In this document: positions 28,371-37,255 of the stretch, piece by piece
How positions within the stretch are numbered: position 1 is the first letter of the stretch
How the letters are laid out: the number at the start of each line of letters is the position of its first letter
DNA from: Winogradskyella alexanderae
GTDB lineage: Bacteria; Bacteroidota; Bacteroidia; Flavobacteriales; Flavobacteriaceae
Direction: 5' to 3'
NCBI RefSeq assembly: GCF_020166335.1
Contig: NZ_JAIUJR010000008.1
Span: 62,001-126,000 of the forward strand
Length of the DNA stretch: 64,000 nucleotides
Translations under genes and position numbers: made by a program
The notes under the pieces: generated by a model
Told to the model about the DNA's origin: nothing
The model's database searches: none
What the model saw: the letters and a program-made list of their open reading frames with translations, nothing else

Positions 28371-28829
28371 ATGAAAAAATTAGCACTATTTATTAGTATT
28401 TTGTTTTGTTCTTTTCTAACTGCCAGTGCACAATTGGAATACAAAGTTATAACTAGCGTTGAATCTATAGTACCAAGTGGATTAGGGCGGTCTAGACTAA
28501 TATCATCTAATGTTGAACGCGATTACGGCGAGTTTACATCCGAGCGCTCAAGTGATGAAAAAGAAAATAGCAGAAATAAATCAAAACGAAGCGATATTAG
28601 AATAAAAGACTTTGAAGAGACAAAGTTGCTTAATTTTTTTAATCTAGGCGGTATCCGTTTTCAAAATATTGTTGCTAATGATGCGGTAATAAGCTCTAAA
28701 CTTACCTCAATGGCAGAGGACGGCTGGGAACTTGTCTTTGTATCTAGTGCTGTTGAAAGTGATGCTGGAAAGGATGACGGACAAGGGATTTTTATTACGC
28801 GTTATATTTTTAAAAGAAACTTAAACTAA
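28371..28829 (+). CDS. Small exported protein with DUF4177-like C-terminus
   Basis: The 152-residue protein has a signal peptide (1-21, ending TASAQ). A middle part is polar and charged (ERDYGEFTSERSSDEKENSRNKSKRSD), probably disordered. A C-terminal segment (SKLTSMAEDGWELVFVSSAVES, then GIFITRYIFKR) resembles DUF4177-type domains, where 'GWELV' is the hallmark. It probably shares a transcript with the DUF4136 gene and ends at a strong terminator. Function unknown. Confidence 0.6.
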   Translation: MKKLALFISILFCSFLTASAQLEYKVITSVESIVPSGLGRSRLISSNVERDYGEFTSERSSDEKENSRNKSKRSDIRIKDFEETKLLNFFNLGGIRFQNIVANDAVISSKLTSMAEDGWELVFVSSAVESDAGKDDGQGIFITRYIFKRNLN

Positions 28830-28855
28830 AAAGGCTCGCGTTTGCGAGCCTTTTT
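28828..28855. terminator. Bidirectional terminator between the small exported gene and the DAHP synthase gene
   Basis: AAAAAGGCTCGC (28828-28839) pairs with GCGAGCCTTTTT (28844-28855) over a GTTT loop. It is perfectly symmetric and lies between convergent genes, ending the aromatic operon as well. Confidence 0.9.
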
Positions 28856-28865
28856 AAATCCGATT

Positions 28866-29948
28866 CTAGTGATTTATTATCTCTTCTTGGTGATTAATGG
28901 ACTCCTGGTGAATTGCCTTAAACATGCGGAGAATAAATTCTTCACTTAAATTCTTTTCCTCTCCTTCTAAAATCATTTTACCAAGGATTTCGTTCCAACG
29001 TTTAGATTGTAAAACAGCAACGTTGTAATCTTTCTTTAATTGGCCAATATCGTCTGCTACTTTCATACGTTTTCCCAAAATCTCAATTAATTGATGATCA
29101 ATTACATCAATTTTTGTTCTGAGGGTGTTTATTTTATTGTTAAACGCAGCATCATCTCCTGTTTCTTTTCTTATTCTTAAATCCTCAGTGTACTTAATTA
29201 GTGCTTCTGGTGTAATTTGCTGTGCCGCATCACTCCATGCATTATCAGGATCGTGATGGGTTTCTATCATCAGGCCGTCGTAATTAAGGTCTAATGCAGT
29301 TTGACTCAGATCAAAAATTATATCACGCTTTCCTGCAATATGGGAAGGGTCTAAAATTAGAGGTAAATCCGGAAAACGGTTTTGTAAATCTATTGCAATC
29401 TGCCATTCTGGATTATTTCTGTAACGTGTTTTTTCATAGGTTGAAAACCCTCGGTGTATCACGCCTAAATTCTTCACATCTGCTGTGTAAAATCGCTCTA
29501 CAGCCCCTAACCAAAGTGATAAATCTGGATTGACAGGATTTTTAATTAAAACAGGTTTATCAGTACCTCTTAAAGCTTCAGCAATCTCCTGCACAATAAA
29601 AGGACTTACCGTTGTTCTTGCTCCTATCCAAAGCACATCTACATCGTGATTTAAAGCCAGCTCTACATGGTTTGGGTTGGCCACTTCAGTGGTAATCATC
29701 ATTCCAGTCTCTTGCTTTGCCTTTTGCAACCATTTTAAACCTAAAGCTCCTACACCTTCAAAATTGCCAGGACGTGTTCTAGGTTTCCAAATACCTGCTC
29801 TAAAAATAGTAGCATCACTATCTTTTAGTTGATGGGCTATATTTAAAACCTGTTCCTCTGTTTCTGCACTGCATGGTCCTGCAATTACAAGCGGATGCTC
29901 TAAGTTAAAGGCATCTAACCAGTTTCTCAATTCCTTTTTATTTTCCAT
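28866..29948 (-). CDS. Bifunctional DAHP synthase / chorismate mutase
   Basis: The 360-residue protein joins a DAHP synthase domain (about 10-250) to a C-terminal chorismate mutase type II (AroQ) domain (about 265-345). The synthase part shows VIAGPCSAETEEQVL, IFRAGIWKPRTRPGNFEGVG, VLIKNPVNPDLSLWLGAVER and LILDPSHIAGKRD. The mutase part shows LRTKIDVIDHQLIEILGKRMKVADDIGQLKK and the basic SKRWNEIL. It catalyses the first step of aromatic synthesis and the chorismate-to-prephenate branch, a fusion typical of Bacteroidota. It is the last gene of the four-gene operon under leader-peptide control. Confidence 0.93.
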   Translation of the reverse strand: MENKKELRNWLDAFNLEHPLVIAGPCSAETEEQVLNIAHQLKDSDATIFRAGIWKPRTRPGNFEGVGALGLKWLQKAKQETGMMITTEVANPNHVELALNHDVDVLWIGARTTVSPFIVQEIAEALRGTDKPVLIKNPVNPDLSLWLGAVERFYTADVKNLGVIHRGFSTYEKTRYRNNPEWQIAIDLQNRFPDLPLILDPSHIAGKRDIIFDLSQTALDLNYDGLMIETHHDPDNAWSDAAQQITPEALIKYTEDLRIRKETGDDAAFNNKINTLRTKIDVIDHQLIEILGKRMKVADDIGQLKKDYNVAVLQSKRWNEILGKMILEGEEKNLSEEFILRMFKAIHQESINHQEEIINH

Positions 29949-29975
29949 TTTGCTATTTTTCTCTTTTTCTAATTT

Positions 29976-30827
29976 TTATTTTATTCCGTTTAAAATATGT
30001 TTAATGTGGTTGGCATCTTCCATTTCTTTAAAAACTGCCTCAAAATCTTCATTTTCCATTAGTTTTTTAAAGTGCTTTAGGTTAGAAATGTATTCATCCA
30101 AAGTCTCAATAACATTTGTTTTGTTTTGTTGAAAAATTGGTGTCCACATAGCTGGAGAGCTTTTGGCAAGCCTCACTGTACTTTCAAAACCACTGCCTGC
30201 CATATCGAAAATATCCCTTTCGTTTTTCTCTTTTTCAATAACTGTTTTTCCTAACATAAATGAACTGATATGAGATAAATGCGAAACATAGGCAATGTGC
30301 TTGTCATGTGCCTTGGGATTCATATATCTTATTCGCATTCCCAAATCTGAAAACAATTTTAATGCGCGTTCCTGTAGCTTAAAGGCTGTGTCTTCAACTT
30401 CACAAATTATATTAGTTTTGTTTTTATAAAGCCCCTTAATTGCGGCTTTTGGTCCAGAGAATTCAGTTCCTGCTATTGGATGTGCAGCCAAATAATTCCT
30501 TCGCCTAGGATGATTTTTAACCTGAAGGCAAATGTCTTCCTTTGTAGAGCCAGCATCAAAAACTATGGTTTCTTCAGAAATGTTATCAAGTACTTCTGGT
30601 AATACGTTTAATGTTGCATCTACAGGTATAGCAATAACAACTAAATCTGCAGATTTTAAATCTTGTAATGATGCTTCTGCATCAATTATACCGACTTCTT
30701 TAGCTTCTTGTAAGTGACTTTTATTTGTATCTATACCAAAAATCTTACAATTAGGGTAAATTCCTTTGATGTCTAAAGCAAAGCTCCCTCCAATTAAACC
30801 AACTCCTATTACAAATACACTATTCAT
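29976..30827 (-). CDS. tyrA: Prephenate dehydrogenase
   Basis: The 283-residue NAD-dependent enzyme oxidatively decarboxylates prephenate to 4-hydroxyphenylpyruvate for tyrosine. It has an N-terminal Rossmann fingerprint VIGVGLIGGSFALDI, then DAGSTKEDIC, HPIAGTEFSGPKAA (catalytic His) and SHLSHISSF. It lacks a fused chorismate mutase, which is supplied by the next gene. It lies 5 bp after the aminotransferase gene and 27 bp before the DAHP synthase gene. Confidence 0.93.
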   Translation of the reverse strand: MNSVFVIGVGLIGGSFALDIKGIYPNCKIFGIDTNKSHLQEAKEVGIIDAEASLQDLKSADLVVIAIPVDATLNVLPEVLDNISEETIVFDAGSTKEDICLQVKNHPRRRNYLAAHPIAGTEFSGPKAAIKGLYKNKTNIICEVEDTAFKLQERALKLFSDLGMRIRYMNPKAHDKHIAYVSHLSHISSFMLGKTVIEKEKNERDIFDMAGSGFESTVRLAKSSPAMWTPIFQQNKTNVIETLDEYISNLKHFKKLMENEDFEAVFKEMEDANHIKHILNGIK

Positions 30828-30832
30828 AGCAT

Positions 30833-31975
30833 CTATACTCTAGCAATAGCCTCCTCAATTAATTCTTCTGAAGCACATAAGGAAAACCTTATGTAACCCT
30901 CCCCATTACTTCCAAAAACCGTACCTGGTGTAATAAATATGGAATGTTCTTTTAGTACCAAATCTGTAAATTCTTCAGACTTTAAATGCGGCGGCAATTT
31001 AGCCCAAACGAACATACCAGATGTATCTTTGTCATAAGTACAGTTTAAATCTGTTGCTAATTTCCAAATAAGCTCTCTTCTTTGTTGGTAAACACTGTTT
31101 AAACTTACAAACCATAAATCAGAACATTTTAAAGCTTCGATTGCTCCTTTTTGTACGCCATAAAACATGCCAGAATCCATATTACTCTTTACTTGTAAAA
31201 CGGCCTTAACAAAATCGTAATTCCCAACCAGCATACCAACACGCCAACCTGCCATATTGAATGTTTTGCTGAGCGAATTTAACTCTATACACACATCTTT
31301 AGCATTTCGATATCGCATTATACTTATTGGTTTGTCATTTAAAATAAAACTGTATGGATTATCATTTACAATTAAAATATTATGGCGTTTGCCAAATGCA
31401 ATTACTTCGTCATAAAATTTATTTGTTGCCTTTGCACCTGTTGGCATGTGCGGATAACTAATCCACATTATCTTAACCTTACTTAGATCCAGACGTTCTA
31501 AGGCTATAAAATCTGGCAACCAATTTGTGTCCTCTGTTAAATCATAATAAACGGGGCTTGCCTCTATGAGCTTAGTTACTGCAGCATAAGTAGGGTAACC
31601 AGGATTTGGAACCAACACCTCATCTCCTGGGTTTAGAAATGCCATGGAGATATGCATTATCCCTTCTTTACTTCCTAAAAGAGGTAGTATTTCTGTTTGT
31701 GAACTTAGGTTTACTTTATACCTCTTCTTATAAAAGTTCGCAATCTCATCTCTTAATTCCGGTAAACCTTGATAGCTTTGGTATTTGTGTGCTCCTTCAT
31801 CTGCAAGACTATCCTGCAGTACTGATGTCGCTTTAATTGGTGGTTCTAGATCAGGACTACCAATTCCTAAATTGATAATAGGTTTTCCCTGAGACTTTAA
31901 AAACGCAACTTCTCTTAATTTTTTGGAGAAATAGTATTCTTCTACATTTTTTAATCGATTTGCAACTTCAATCAT
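30833..31975 (-). CDS. Class I/II PLP-dependent aminotransferase (aromatic pathway)
   Basis: The 380-residue fold-type I aminotransferase carries the PLP lysine in ELNSLSKTFNMAGWRVGM, the cofactor-phosphate region LLGSKEGI, the Asn/Asp contacts in VNDNPYSFIL, and the substrate-binding arginine in EGYIRFSLC. From its place between prephenate dehydratase and prephenate dehydrogenase it most likely makes phenylalanine and tyrosine from the corresponding keto acids, though the fold alone also fits aspartate or diaminopimelate transaminases. It overlaps the pheA stop by 4 bp. Confidence 0.88.
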   Translation of the reverse strand: MIEVANRLKNVEEYYFSKKLREVAFLKSQGKPIINLGIGSPDLEPPIKATSVLQDSLADEGAHKYQSYQGLPELRDEIANFYKKRYKVNLSSQTEILPLLGSKEGIMHISMAFLNPGDEVLVPNPGYPTYAAVTKLIEASPVYYDLTEDTNWLPDFIALERLDLSKVKIMWISYPHMPTGAKATNKFYDEVIAFGKRHNILIVNDNPYSFILNDKPISIMRYRNAKDVCIELNSLSKTFNMAGWRVGMLVGNYDFVKAVLQVKSNMDSGMFYGVQKGAIEALKCSDLWFVSLNSVYQQRRELIWKLATDLNCTYDKDTSGMFVWAKLPPHLKSEEFTDLVLKEHSIFITPGTVFGSNGEGYIRFSLCASEELIEEAIARV

Positions 31976-32799
31976 AATCTCGCATTTTTATATTCTCCTA
32001 ATATTTTAAAGTCTTCGGCCATAAGGGTTATAATAGATTTTGCCTTGGCGTAATCATCATACGTATCAAAAGTCACATCGACAAAAAAAGCATACTTCCA
32101 AGGTGTATCAATTTTTGGCAAGGATTGTATTTTGGTTAAATTAAGCTTGCAATCACTCATAACATTGAGGAGGGTTGCCAAGCTCCCTCGCTTGTGATCT
32201 AAAATAAACTTTAAGGATGCCTTATTAAGTAATTGAGGATTTATAAACGGACTCTCTCGTTTTACAATTACAAAGCGCGTTTCGTTGTGTTTAATTGTTT
32301 GAATACTTTCTGCTAGGATATTAAGACCAAACATCAATGCCGCATTTTTACTTGCGATTGCTGCAACACCATGCGTATTTTCCTCAGAAATTAGCCGCGC
32401 AACATCTGCCGTATCCTTGGCTTCTACAAGTTTGATATGTGGATAATTTTTTAGGAATTCCTTGCACTGCAATAATGCCATGGGATGAGAATGAACCTCC
32501 TTAATATCGTTAATAGAATGACCATTTAATGCCATAAGATTATGTTGAATATCTAGAAAGTACTCACCTACAATCTTTAAATTGTTCTTATCCAACAAGG
32601 CATAGTTTGGCAAAATAGATCCTGCAATAGAGTTTTCCAGTGCCATAACGATATCATCCGTTTTACCATTTAATAAATTATCTACAGCACTGTCAAAAGA
32701 CATGCATTCAATTACATTATCACTTCCATTAAAGTAGTGCCGCACCACTTCATGATGGAAAGAACCTCTTATTCCTTGTATTGCTATTGGCTTGCTCAT
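31972..32799 (-). CDS. pheA: Prephenate dehydratase
   Basis: The 275-residue enzyme converts prephenate to phenylpyruvate. The catalytic domain shows GIRGSFHHEVVRHYF, VMALENSIAGSI, SHPMALLQC and the NETRF motif (here HNETRFVIV). A C-terminal ACT domain (about 190-265, LDHKRGSLATLLNVMSDCKLNLTKIQS) probably gives phenylalanine feedback inhibition. It is not fused to chorismate mutase. Its ATG directly follows the U-tract of a terminator hairpin that ends a leader-peptide region, so its operon appears to be controlled by transcription attenuation. Confidence 0.94.
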   Translation of the reverse strand: MSKPIAIQGIRGSFHHEVVRHYFNGSDNVIECMSFDSAVDNLLNGKTDDIVMALENSIAGSILPNYALLDKNNLKIVGEYFLDIQHNLMALNGHSINDIKEVHSHPMALLQCKEFLKNYPHIKLVEAKDTADVARLISEENTHGVAAIASKNAALMFGLNILAESIQTIKHNETRFVIVKRESPFINPQLLNKASLKFILDHKRGSLATLLNVMSDCKLNLTKIQSLPKIDTPWKYAFFVDVTFDTYDDYAKAKSIITLMAEDFKILGEYKNARL

Positions 32800-32802
32800 A
32801 AT

Positions 32803-32831
32803 AAAAAAGTCCCGATTAAATCGAGACTTTT
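32803..32831 (-). terminator. Attenuator: terminator hairpin of the aromatic-operon leader
   Basis: On the minus strand AAAAGTCTCGAT (32831-32820) pairs with ATCGGGACTTTT (32816-32805) over a 3-nt loop, with one G-U pair. It is followed by a T run that stops 3 nt before the pheA ATG. Its 5' arm (AAGTCTCG, 32829-32822) can instead pair with CGAGGCTT (32867-32860) at the end of the leader peptide ORF, forming an antiterminator. Confidence 0.82.
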
Positions 32832-32857
32832 ATAATTATATTTTTCAATTAAACATA

Positions 32858-32929
32858 CTAAGCCTCGCTCCTTTTGCTAAAAAAGAAATAAAACCAGCTG
32901 TAATATGTTTGCGTATTATTCATTGTCAT
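32858..32929 (-). CDS. Aromatic amino-acid leader peptide (23 residues)
   Basis: An ORF too short for ordinary gene calling begins with ATG at 32929 (or in-frame ATG at 32923) and ends with TAG at 32860-32858. Its residues 9-17 are YYSWFYFFF: three Tyr, one Trp and four Phe in nine codons, eight aromatic residues of 23 in total. It lies 59 bp upstream of pheA, just before a terminator hairpin. This is the hallmark of a ribosome-stalling leader peptide that senses charged tRNA-Phe, tRNA-Tyr and tRNA-Trp. A stall in the aromatic run would leave CGAGGCTT (32867-32860) free for the antiterminator; a ribosome at the stop codon would cover it and allow termination. Translation itself is inferred. 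Confidence 0.82.
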   Translation of the reverse strand: MTMNNTQTYYSWFYFFFSKRSEA

Positions 32930-32939
32930 TATTCTGTCG

Positions 32940-32947
32940 CTAAAGTA
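32940..32947 (-). promoter_or_regulatory. Candidate -7 box of the aromatic operon
   Basis: Minus-strand TACTTTAG (32947-32940) matches the Bacteroidota -7 consensus TAnnTTTG except for one base. It would start transcription about 4-12 nt before the leader peptide start codon. No TTG at standard -33 spacing was found, so this is weak. Confidence 0.3.
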
Positions 32948-33048
32948 AATAATATTTTTACAATTAAAAATTGAAAGCATTTTTTTTGAATAATAATTGA
33001 AATTTTTAAACATTTATAAATAACTATAGGTCTAAATTTTAGATTACT

Positions 33049-33056
33049 TACTTTTG
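33049..33056 (+). promoter_or_regulatory. Candidate -7 box of gldA
   Basis: TACTTTTG matches TAnnTTTG exactly, 16 nt upstream of the gldA ATG. No clear TTG element at -33 was seen. Confidence 0.4.
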
Positions 33057-33072
33057 AATAAACACTGATAAA

Positions 33073-33966
33073 ATGTCTATTGAGGTCACAAATATTACAA
33101 AGCGCTATAAAAATCAAAAAGCTTTACATAACGTTTCATTTAAGGTAAATGATGCTGAAATTGTTGGATTTCTAGGTCCTAATGGCGCGGGTAAGTCTAC
33201 AATGATGAAAATCTTAACAACCTATATAAATGCAAATGAGGGTAAAGCAAAAGTAAATGGGTATGATGTTATTAATAATAAAAAAAATGTACAGCAAAGT
33301 GTTGGCTATTTACCAGAGCACAATCCTCTTTATATCGAATTATATGTAAAGGAATACCTTAATTTTAATGCTGATGTCTACGGTGTACCCAAATCTAGGA
33401 TTAATGAGGTTATTGAACTTACTGGATTAACGCCTGAAGCACACAAAAAAATAAGTCAATTATCCAAGGGCTACAGGCAGCGCGTAGGATTGGCAAATGC
33501 ATTGCTACATAATCCTGATGTCTTAATTCTCGATGAACCAACGACAGGTCTAGATCCAAACCAGCTTGTTGAAATTAGAAACTTGATTAAATCCATAGGG
33601 AAAGAGAAAACGGTATTTCTATCTACTCATATCATGCAAGAGGTGGAAGCCATGTGCGATCGTGTGATTATAATTAACAAAGGTGAAGTTGTTGCAGACA
33701 AATACCTGAAAGATTTAAGAGATGGCCAGGAGCAAATTGTTGTCGTAGAATTTGATTACCGCGTTGAAGATGCGTTTCTGCTAAAACTACCAAAAGTTAA
33801 ATCTGTAAAAAACACTACTGGGTTTGTTTATGAAATTACATTTACCACAAAGGAAGACATGAGATCGTATGTCTTTGATTTTGCCCATGATAACGCACTT
33901 AAAATTTTACAGCTCAATCAAAAGAATGCAAGCTTAGAGAGTTTGTTTAGGGATTTGACTAATTAA
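33073..33966 (+). CDS. gldA: Gliding-motility ABC transporter ATP-binding protein GldA
   Basis: The 297-residue ABC ATPase has Walker A GPNGAGKSTMMKI (about 35-47), the ABC signature LSKGYRQRVGLANALL, Walker B DVLILDEPTTGLD and the H-loop STHIMQEVEAM. The VGYLPEHNPLYIELYVKEYLNFNADVYG segment and C-terminal domain match GldA of Flavobacteriia. GldA works with GldF/GldG, which are not in this window, and is needed for gliding in Flavobacterium johnsoniae. Its 3' end overlaps the convergent 33959-34702 gene by 8 bp. A generic ABC-2 type ATPase is the alternative. Confidence 0.82.
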   Translation: MSIEVTNITKRYKNQKALHNVSFKVNDAEIVGFLGPNGAGKSTMMKILTTYINANEGKAKVNGYDVINNKKNVQQSVGYLPEHNPLYIELYVKEYLNFNADVYGVPKSRINEVIELTGLTPEAHKKISQLSKGYRQRVGLANALLHNPDVLILDEPTTGLDPNQLVEIRNLIKSIGKEKTVFLSTHIMQEVEAMCDRVIIINKGEVVADKYLKDLRDGQEQIVVVEFDYRVEDAFLLKLPKVKSVKNTTGFVYEITFTTKEDMRSYVFDFAHDNALKILQLNQKNASLESLFRDLTN

Positions 33967-35891: not shown

Positions 35892-35901
35892 CCTCGAAAA
35901 T

Positions 35902-35954
35902 TAGAGGAATGATTTGACTGATTGCAACCTCTGGAAAAAATGCTAAAGACAGTG
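35902..35954 (+). ncRNA. SAM-II-type riboswitch upstream of metK
   Basis: P1 is AGAGG (35903-35907) with CCTCT (35928-35932). The loop reads GATTTGACTGATTGCAA, very close to the GATTTAAC...TTGCAA of known SAM-II RNAs. ACTG in that loop (35917-35920) can pair with CAGT (35950-35953), giving the H-type pseudoknot. The joining strand AAAAAATGCTAAAG carries the conserved A-rich and GCTAAA parts of the class. The position directly before S-adenosylmethionine synthetase fits feedback by SAM. The aptamer ends 48 nt before the ATG, so the usual direct masking of a nearby ribosome site is not obvious. The class call is by eye. Confidence 0.8.
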
Positions 35955-36001
35955 TTAACTTTCCCAACAATTACGTCAAATCCATAGATAAAATTAATTA
36001 T

Positions 36002-37255
36002 ATGGCGTATTTATTTACCTCAGAAAGTGTGTCTGAAGGACATCCTGATAAAGTAGCAGACCAAATTAGCGATGCTTTAATCGACAATTTTTTAGCCTTT
36101 GATCCAGAATCTAAAGTTGCTTGCGAAACTTTGGTAACAACAGGTCAGGTTGTACTCGCAGGAGAAGTAAAGTCTAACACTTATTTAGACGTACAGAAAA
36201 TTGCTAGAGACACCATAAATAAGATTGGATATACTAAGGGCGAATATATGTTCGATGGAAATTCGTGTGGTGTCTTATCGGCCATTCATGAACAATCAGA
36301 GGACATTAATCGAGGTGTTGATAGAGCTACCAAAGAAGAGCAAGGTGCTGGAGATCAAGGAATGATGTTTGGTTACGCTACGAATGAAACCTATAATTAC
36401 ATGCCATTGGCACTTCACCTTTCCCACTTAATATTAAAGGAGCTAGCAACATTGCGCCACGAAAGTAATGAAATTCCTTATTTGAGACCGGATTCTAAAA
36501 GTCAGGTTACCATAGAATATAGCGATGACAATGTCCCACAAAGAATAGAAGCTATAGTTATATCTACGCAACATGACAACTTTGACGATGAAGAAAAGAT
36601 GCTTAAAAAAATTAAGGAAGACATCATTGGCATATTAATACCAAGAGTATTAGCAAAAGTTCCAGATGACATAAGAGCCTTATTTACTGATAAGATTAAA
36701 TATCACATTAATCCAACAGGAAAGTTTGTAATTGGTGGCCCGCATGGCGATACTGGTTTAACAGGAAGAAAGATTATAGTTGATACGTATGGTGGCAAAG
36801 GCGCTCATGGTGGTGGAGCATTTTCTGGTAAAGACCCAAGCAAAGTAGATCGAAGTGCAGCTTATGCAACGAGACATATAGCCAAAAATCTAGTTGCAGC
36901 CGGTTTATGTGATGAAGTCTTAGTACAAGTATCTTATGCCATTGGTGTGGTAGAACCAATGGGTATTTTTATTGATACCTATGGTACCTGTCCTTTTAAT
37001 ATAACCGATGGTGAAATTGCCCAAAAAGTTTCTCAGATTTTTGATATGCGACCTGCAGCAATTGAAAAACGACTAAAACTGCGACAACCTATGTATAGTG
37101 AAACCGCGTCATACGGACATATGGGACGTGAAAACAAAACCGTTCAAAAAACCTTTGAACAACCGAATGGTGAAAAACGCACTATGGATGTAGAATTATT
37201 TACTTGGGAAAAACTAGATTATGTCGACAAGATAAAAGAGGCATTTGATTTATAA
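36002..37255 (+). CDS. metK: S-adenosylmethionine synthetase
   Basis: The 417-residue enzyme makes SAM from methionine and ATP. Signatures are [35 protein letters not shown] (canonical L replaced by M), [21 protein letters not shown] and [19 protein letters not shown]. The size is normal. Its 5' leader holds a SAM-II-like riboswitch, so it is probably repressed by its product. It is monocistronic, with a hairpin after the stop codon. Confidence 0.97.

Follow-up and report, generated by a model that had tools for sequence, protein, structure and literature searches.

The short region ahead of pheA in Winogradskyella alexanderae (Flavobacteriaceae) is, with a probability that we put at about 0.93, a classical ribosome-mediated transcription attenuator. 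This reading comes from comparative sequence analysis and predicted folds, and all coordinates below refer to the window, a stretch of 64,000 nucleotides of this genome. The features of such a switch are present: a short ORF rich in aromatic codons, an intrinsic terminator before the first gene, and a mutually exclusive antiterminator whose arm is predicted, with an assumed ribosome footprint, to be covered at the leader end and freed by a stall. The layout of alternative helices (1:2, 2:3 and 3:4) is that of the trp attenuator. In the proposed mechanism, RNA polymerase would start a short distance ahead of the leader ORF, with a ribosome trailing it through the leader. When charged Phe- and Tyr-tRNA (and Trp-tRNA where TGG is present) are plentiful, the ribosome would reach the leader end and cover region 2, and with region 2 covered the 3:4 terminator would form before pheA. 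If a charged aromatic tRNA runs low, the ribosome would stall in the run YYSWFYFFF and leave region 2 free to form the 2:3 antiterminator, which would allow transcription of the operon, whose genes serve the synthesis of Phe and Tyr and the initial step of the common pathway. If no ribosome is present, a 1:2 hairpin would compete with the antiterminator. Leader-peptide attenuation had been claimed in the original prediction, and it is supported computationally by conservation, terminators, co-varying arms and folds with a masked ribosome.

The operon under control lies on the minus strand and contains four genes. The first is pheA, encoding prephenate dehydratase (31972..32799; Pfam PF00800 above its cut-off, NCBIfam equivalogs below theirs), which has a 4-base overlap with a class I/II aminotransferase gene (30833..31975; PF00155). 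These are followed by tyrA, encoding prephenate dehydrogenase (29976..30827; NF006307 above its cut-off), and by a DAHP synthase-chorismate mutase fusion (28866..29948; PF00793 and PF01817). Directly after the last of the four genes, a consensus scan places a terminator-like hairpin of 14 pairs (28826..28857, minus strand), although the total of such hairpins in the region is at chance level. On the other side, gldA runs divergently from the leader operon, from 33073 onwards.

The leader ORF (32858..32929, minus strand) has 23 codons followed by TAG and encodes MTMNNTQTYYSWFYFFFSKRSEA; a second possible start ATG lies at 32923-32921. The presumptive control codons, YYSWFYFFF, are residues 9-17 (32879..32905, minus strand), identified from the translation, from column-wise conservation and from masked-ribosome folds. 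Beyond them lies region 2 (32851..32867, minus strand), in which the antiterminator arm CGAGGCTT (32867-32860) overlaps the partner of region 1, TAGTATGTTT (32860-32851), as judged by pairing scores. Region 3, AAGTCTCG (32822..32829, minus strand), is both the 5' arm of the terminator and the alternative partner of region 2. The CGAGGCTT:AAGTCTCG helix has 8 pairs including one G-U and starts 11 nt past the last Phe codon. Region 1, AAACATATTA (32901..32910, minus strand), is located inside the Gln-Thr-Tyr-Tyr codons, and its helix with TAGTATGTTT has ten pairs, one of them G-U, and is present in the minimum-energy fold. Regions 3:4 make up the intrinsic terminator with its T run (32803..32831, minus strand), which adjoins the pheA start codon; the hairpin proper (32831-32805) has 12 pairs, and its 3' end is 5 nt before the pheA ATG. 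The original prediction had named the ORF and its aromatic run, the terminator hairpin with its T run, the 8-bp antiterminator 11 nt after the codon for F17, and the gene content of the operon, and these hold nearly to the base. The sole slip is the gap between leader stop and pheA, given as 59 bp, where the actual distance to the ATG (32799) is 58 bp. The 150-nt leader folds better than its shuffled versions (z -3.57), with an equally good fold in 1 of 200 shuffles.

A probable -7 promoter box, TACTTTAG (32940..32947, minus strand), can be recognized just upstream of the ORF from its sequence and from the corresponding elements of relatives. The -7 consensus of the Bacteroidota sigma-A is given as TAnnTTTG in the available part of PMC9723704. 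The -33 position of the leader promoter (32968-32966) reads TTT, not TTG. From these elements we infer a transcription start near 32935. Upstream of the leader ATG, a TTG-N17-20-TAnnTT-like element is found in 100/146 relatives, compared with a mean of 3.15/146 and at most 12 in 20 shuffles. This argues against a start downstream of 32880, which the original prediction had named as the result that would speak against it, the start near 32935 being a predicted one.

Conservation of the leader was assessed in the same family, where PheA was detected in 178 of 199 Flavobacteriaceae genomes; the upstream DNA of the best 150 of the 178 loci was used, the remaining 28 genomes being the weakest matches, one of which, L207, was examined separately. 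The closest PheA found to that of the window, from Winogradskyella vincentii, has 88% identity. Upstream of pheA, 146 of these best 150 loci have a short ORF in which a stretch of nine residues includes five or more aromatic ones, and 144 have one with six or more in nine. At the stricter threshold the controls give 5/150 on the opposite strand, 7/150 in DNA 1000-1500 bp upstream and 3/150 in shuffled DNA; at five in nine the corresponding values are 33/150, 23/150 and 17/150. The four misses can be described individually. Two have little upstream DNA near contig edges (L006, 128 bp; L139, 379 bp), and at a third, L143, no aromatic leader was found upstream of pheA. The fourth, L035, was counted as a miss and does have an aromatic leader, MNTTVYTYQTWNYFFFSKRNETSYV, 568 bp upstream of pheA; its separation of about 570 bp may reflect an insertion or rearrangement between switch and gene. 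A second set of 80 titled loci, mostly from Winogradskyella and Flavobacterium and with genomes partly shared with the first set, has both leader and terminator in 78, the two exceptions being L240 (150 bp of upstream DNA) and L278 (no leader within 500 bp).

The terminator is equally constant. A hairpin with a T run follows the leader in 146/146 relatives, 18-52 nt past the leader stop. The strong terminator score is reached by all 146, compared with 1, 0 and 0 of 146 in three shuffles of the same stretch. The opposite strand of the stretch gives terminator-like matches in 97/146 loci, 51 of them at the strong score, as expected for a stem beginning with A's. Within 28700-33100 of the window, three terminator-like hairpins are observed where 3.1 are expected in shuffles, so that the count alone is at chance level and it is the comparison among relatives that carries weight.

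Further evidence comes from the pairing between leader end and terminator. The stretch after the aromatic run pairs with the 5' arm of the terminator at a score of at least 13 in 140/146 loci, as opposed to a mean of 16.35/146 and at most 22/146 in 20 shuffles. Length alone is no strong test because, while 142/146 loci have a helix of at least 5 bp, shuffled leaders reach this length in 78/146 on average. Of the 142 loci with such a helix, 109 have a spacing of 10-11 nt between the last aromatic codon and the arm (range 7-15); the start of the arm precedes the leader stop codon in 128 loci and does not in 14. The mean 2:3 pairing score is 16.17 for a locus's own arms; swapping arms between loci lowers it to 13.47 (best of 30: 14.14), and shuffling the leader end lowers it to 10.06 (best of 30: 10.30). 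Taken alone the swap control overstates the case, since related genomes have both arms in common by descent, and a variable arm pair was therefore placed on the PheA tree. In the 118 readable loci (28 were set aside) this pair is T-A in 77, C-G in 32, T-G in 5 and unpaired in 4. Its two sides change on the same branch of the tree 3 times (6 and 10 changes over 290 branches), for which the hypergeometric P is about 0.0006, with branch lengths ignored. A cross-table of exact complements is less clear than the helix score. An exact six-base complement is found at the leader end in 37/82 GTCTCG loci and 22/36 GTCCCG loci, and in 71/82 and 26/36 of them, respectively, when G-U is allowed, in which case GTCTCG, GTCCTG and GTTCCG arms can also be matched by leader ends of the GTCCCG class. 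The competing 1:2 helix has a mean score of 18.19 for own arms, 15.60 for swapped arms (best of 20: 15.88) and 15.04 for shuffled ones (best of 20: 15.44). Thus the features expected in relatives by the original prediction can be seen: terminators in 146/146, a conserved aromatic run in 146/150 loci, with Phe/Tyr exchange, and terminator and antiterminator arms that co-vary in both the swap control and the tree.

The effect of a stalled ribosome can be approximated by folding the leader to the end of region 3 with a footprint masked from P-13 to P+15. A value of this kind comes from E. coli work. This was done for the 129/146 loci whose arms have at least 6 bases and start before the leader's end, and helices that would enclose the ribosome were allowed. 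With the A site placed upstream of the last aromatic codon by 8, 4, 2, 1 and 0 codons, the mean antiterminator probability is 0.975, 0.978, 0.969, 0.954 and 0.908, and with the A site 1, 2 and 3 codons past it the value falls to 0.26, 0.015 and 0.000. With the ribosome at the leader stop codon it is 0.008. When the ribosome is absent the average is 0.644 (0.36 in the window), and because the antiterminator still reaches 0.64 without a ribosome, the 1:2 competitor appears weak in many loci. The cut-off depends on the footprint assumed. A footprint reaching P+13 shifts it downstream by about one codon (0.78 with the A site one codon beyond the last aromatic codon), and with one reaching P+17 the last aromatic codon gives an antiterminator probability of only 0.576. 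The three sizes tried would thus place the end of the aromatic run at the switch point to within about one codon.

Which amino acids act as the signal can be approached through codon content. Phe codons occur in 146/146 leaders and Tyr codons in 146/146; Trp codons occur in 92/146 and are absent from 54/146, with TGG accounting for 2.7% of the leader codons overall. All three are present in the window, and the Trp part of the code is, from these counts, optional. Almost every locus of the two large arm classes (79 and 36 loci) has aromatic residues at the last four positions, and Phe and Tyr exchange at each of these, the minority ranging from 1/79 to 12/36. Such aromatic exchange fits better with a reading of tRNA charge than with a fixed arrest peptide. 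Against expectation, the third codon positions of the run are no more variable than the second in these two classes, and because second and third positions vary about equally, the silent-change signature of a selected peptide is invisible. The residues after the run track the RNA arm that they encode, being often Glu-Thr-Leu or Glu-Ala with the arms CGAGAC or CGAGGC, and Thr-Gly-Leu or Ala-Gly-Leu with the arm CGGGAC. The joint sensing of Phe, Tyr and Trp put forward in the original prediction is a possibility suggested by codon content.

Several other explanations of the same region can be weighed against the attenuator. It could be a chance aromatic ORF in AT-rich DNA beside an ordinary terminator, given that TTT and TAT are frequent in such DNA and that 33/150 opposite-strand windows pass the threshold of five in nine. 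A chance origin is nevertheless excluded because the leader is conserved across pheA loci of the family, and the leader, terminator and pairing controls together with the co-variation of the arms leave this explanation a negligible probability. Alternatively, the hairpin could serve mainly to hide the pheA start codon and thereby act on translation, which would suit a hairpin that stops 5 nt before the ATG in the window. However, the distance from the hairpin to the start of the pheA match ranges from 5 to 340 nt across the 146 relatives, and every hairpin found carries a T run (a tail demanded by the search and seldom present in shuffles), making translational control highly improbable. Only slightly less improbable is an arrest peptide of the TnaC kind that would sense a free aromatic metabolite in the ribosome tunnel rather than charged tRNA. 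In its favour, the peptide pattern varies rather little within a group, with a non-aromatic Asn in 47/79 loci of one class. Across the family, however, there are Phe/Tyr swaps, length changes and two different consensus types, and from group to group the residues that follow the run change together with the RNA arm that they encode.

A far stronger contender, to which we give slightly less than an even chance, accepts a real attenuator that senses essentially one amino acid, Phe, whose codons are nearest the switch point, with Tyr and Trp codons being cheap or serving the pairing of region 1. Phe occupies the aromatic position nearest the arm in 76/79 and 30/36 loci of the two large classes, the Trp codon is missing in 54/146 leaders, and there is overlap between region 1 and Tyr codons, both in the window and in several listed examples. 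The closest tested mixed leader found, the Phe-Tyr-Phe AroR leader of Corynebacterium glutamicum, answers to Phe and not to Tyr according to the accessible text of a review (PMC11802643). Set against this are the Tyr codons in 146/146 leaders, an operon that makes both Phe and Tyr, and masked folds in which a stall at the tested upstream codons also yields the antiterminator. A bolder version of the attenuator would have one leader peptide act as an OR gate over the charging of Phe-, Tyr- and Trp-tRNA. This three-amino-acid attenuator would be ancestral to Bacteroidota and would have been kept before pheA for most of the history of the phylum, in hosts that initiate without Shine-Dalgarno sequences, with changes confined to the arms and to the order in which aromatic codons follow one another. 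This proposal we advance tentatively, and we would not be surprised to see it fail.

The aromatic leader before pheA is not restricted to the family. DNA similarity extends to 13/21 genomes, all of one genus, and since it stops there, any wider comparison rests on the position of pheA and on leader content. A phylum-wide search detected PheA in 258/296 genomes. From these, 40 wider loci were taken. Of the 33 same-class genomes in which PheA was matched, 31 (six families) are represented; 8 loci come from seven further families of the phylum, and one from a low-scoring member of the window's own family. The sample does not extend to the remaining matches, among them all six in a family of the same order. 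An aromatic leader is found within 400 bp in 33/40 loci (27/31 same-class, 5/8 from further families, and 1/1), a frequency that is no phylum average because the loci are among the better-scoring PheA matches; one of the five further-family leaders, L201, forms the end of an ORF of 99 residues. Leader and terminator occur together in 30/40, and in these 30 loci the arm pairing scores 17.85 for own arms, 14.44 for swapped arms (best of 50: 15.73) and 10.46 for shuffled arms (best of 50: 11.17). The leader is absent within 400 bp in 7/40 loci. Four loci with no aromatic leader upstream of pheA (L175, L179, L190 and L197) are all same-class and belong to one family (f8), three other loci of which do have one, and they could represent lineage-specific losses. 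An old origin of the leader with some losses is likely on this distribution.

The same genome contains other apparent attenuators. A his leader, MNQNQLHHHFHLIAQAR, followed by a terminator hairpin, lies upstream of hisG (L290 1951-2004, contig C47), and an Rfam Bacteroid-trp leader (51.2 bits against a cut-off of 49) that holds the ORF MNFTKTHIWWWSLTKLCS lies before the trp operon (L289 6873-6992, contig C48), so that with the aromatic leader the genome has at least three apparent attenuators of this type. Searching the genome for Trp-rich leaders by pattern was also tried and was discarded as being at chance level (26 forward and 29 reverse, against 31 and 16 in the backwards control); the true trp leader (C48:76918) is in the resulting list and is recognizable only through the trp operon. 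A search for IlvD gave no match in this genome. Elsewhere in the window, a SAM-II (long loop) riboswitch (35898-35956, plus strand; 66.7 bits against a cut-off of 44) is found just upstream of an ORF (36002-37255, plus strand) that by eye resembles S-adenosylmethionine synthetase.

Ribosome-mediated attenuation of this clean, conserved and easily tested form would be of particular interest in a phylum whose mRNAs are without Shine-Dalgarno sequences, as stated for Bacteroidetes in the accessible part of PMC6847099. If true, it would mean that transcription and translation are coupled closely enough there for a stalled ribosome to steer RNA polymerase. The leader also lends itself naturally to testing whether three amino acids can be reported by a single leader, and the family of pheA leaders is a possible addition to Rfam.

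Comparison with known systems can begin with Rfam, in which no family reaches its gathering score in the leader region, SAM-II being the sole match in the window; a described riboswitch was accordingly rejected as the identity of the leader. The best match to the leader region is RF01859 Phe_leader, the enterobacterial pheL (31.3 bits, E 0.0012, below the 55-bit gathering score). The pheL leader codes for Phe and is not known to code for Tyr or Trp. The model is spanned end to end on the right strand (window 32800-32910, minus strand), and this sub-cut-off likeness could reflect either common descent or convergence. RF01692 Bacteroid-trp (2010) is a leader from the same phylum but has Trp codons and precedes the trp operon, and the pheA leader scores 20 bits against it, below the 49-bit gathering score. 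Bacteroid-trp was included in Weinberg et al. 2010 (PMC2864571, as far as its accessible text goes), and the available part of another report of that year (PMC2965389) states that, before its own case in Firmicutes, no leader-peptide system was known outside Proteobacteria and Actinobacteria. Closest to the present case are the available sections of Guerin et al. 2021 (PMC9723704), which describe, for Flavobacterium psychrophilum, strong clues that amino-acid operons are preceded by leader-peptide attenuators, and a conserved structured pheA 5' element, present also in other genera of Flavobacteriaceae and having no Rfam hit. That element concerns the same gene and family, and those sections contain no analysis of peptide, arms or codons. 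The original prediction had considered this form of control undescribed or little described; given that report, "little described" stands and "undescribed" does not. In the literature on leaders and attenuation covered by our search, which left most subscription journals outside, neither a three-amino-acid code nor a phylum-wide spread was found described. The mechanism is thus well known in kind and already suggested for Flavobacteriaceae, and the pheA leader version of it looks old and widespread in the phylum by its distribution. Added here are the full anatomy of the switch with co-variation, the simulation of stalls, the spread beyond the family and the counts that make Trp optional. Two leader ORFs with Phe and Tyr precede shikimate genes in the bacteria studied in PMC6429828, according to its available text, and the AroR leader of C. 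glutamicum (Neshat 2014, as presented in the accessible portion of the review PMC11802643) is a mixed Phe-Tyr-Phe attenuator located before a DAHP synthase operon. AroR differs from the leader in the window in belonging to Actinobacteria, in having no Trp codon mentioned in that portion and in being reported to respond to Phe, not Tyr.
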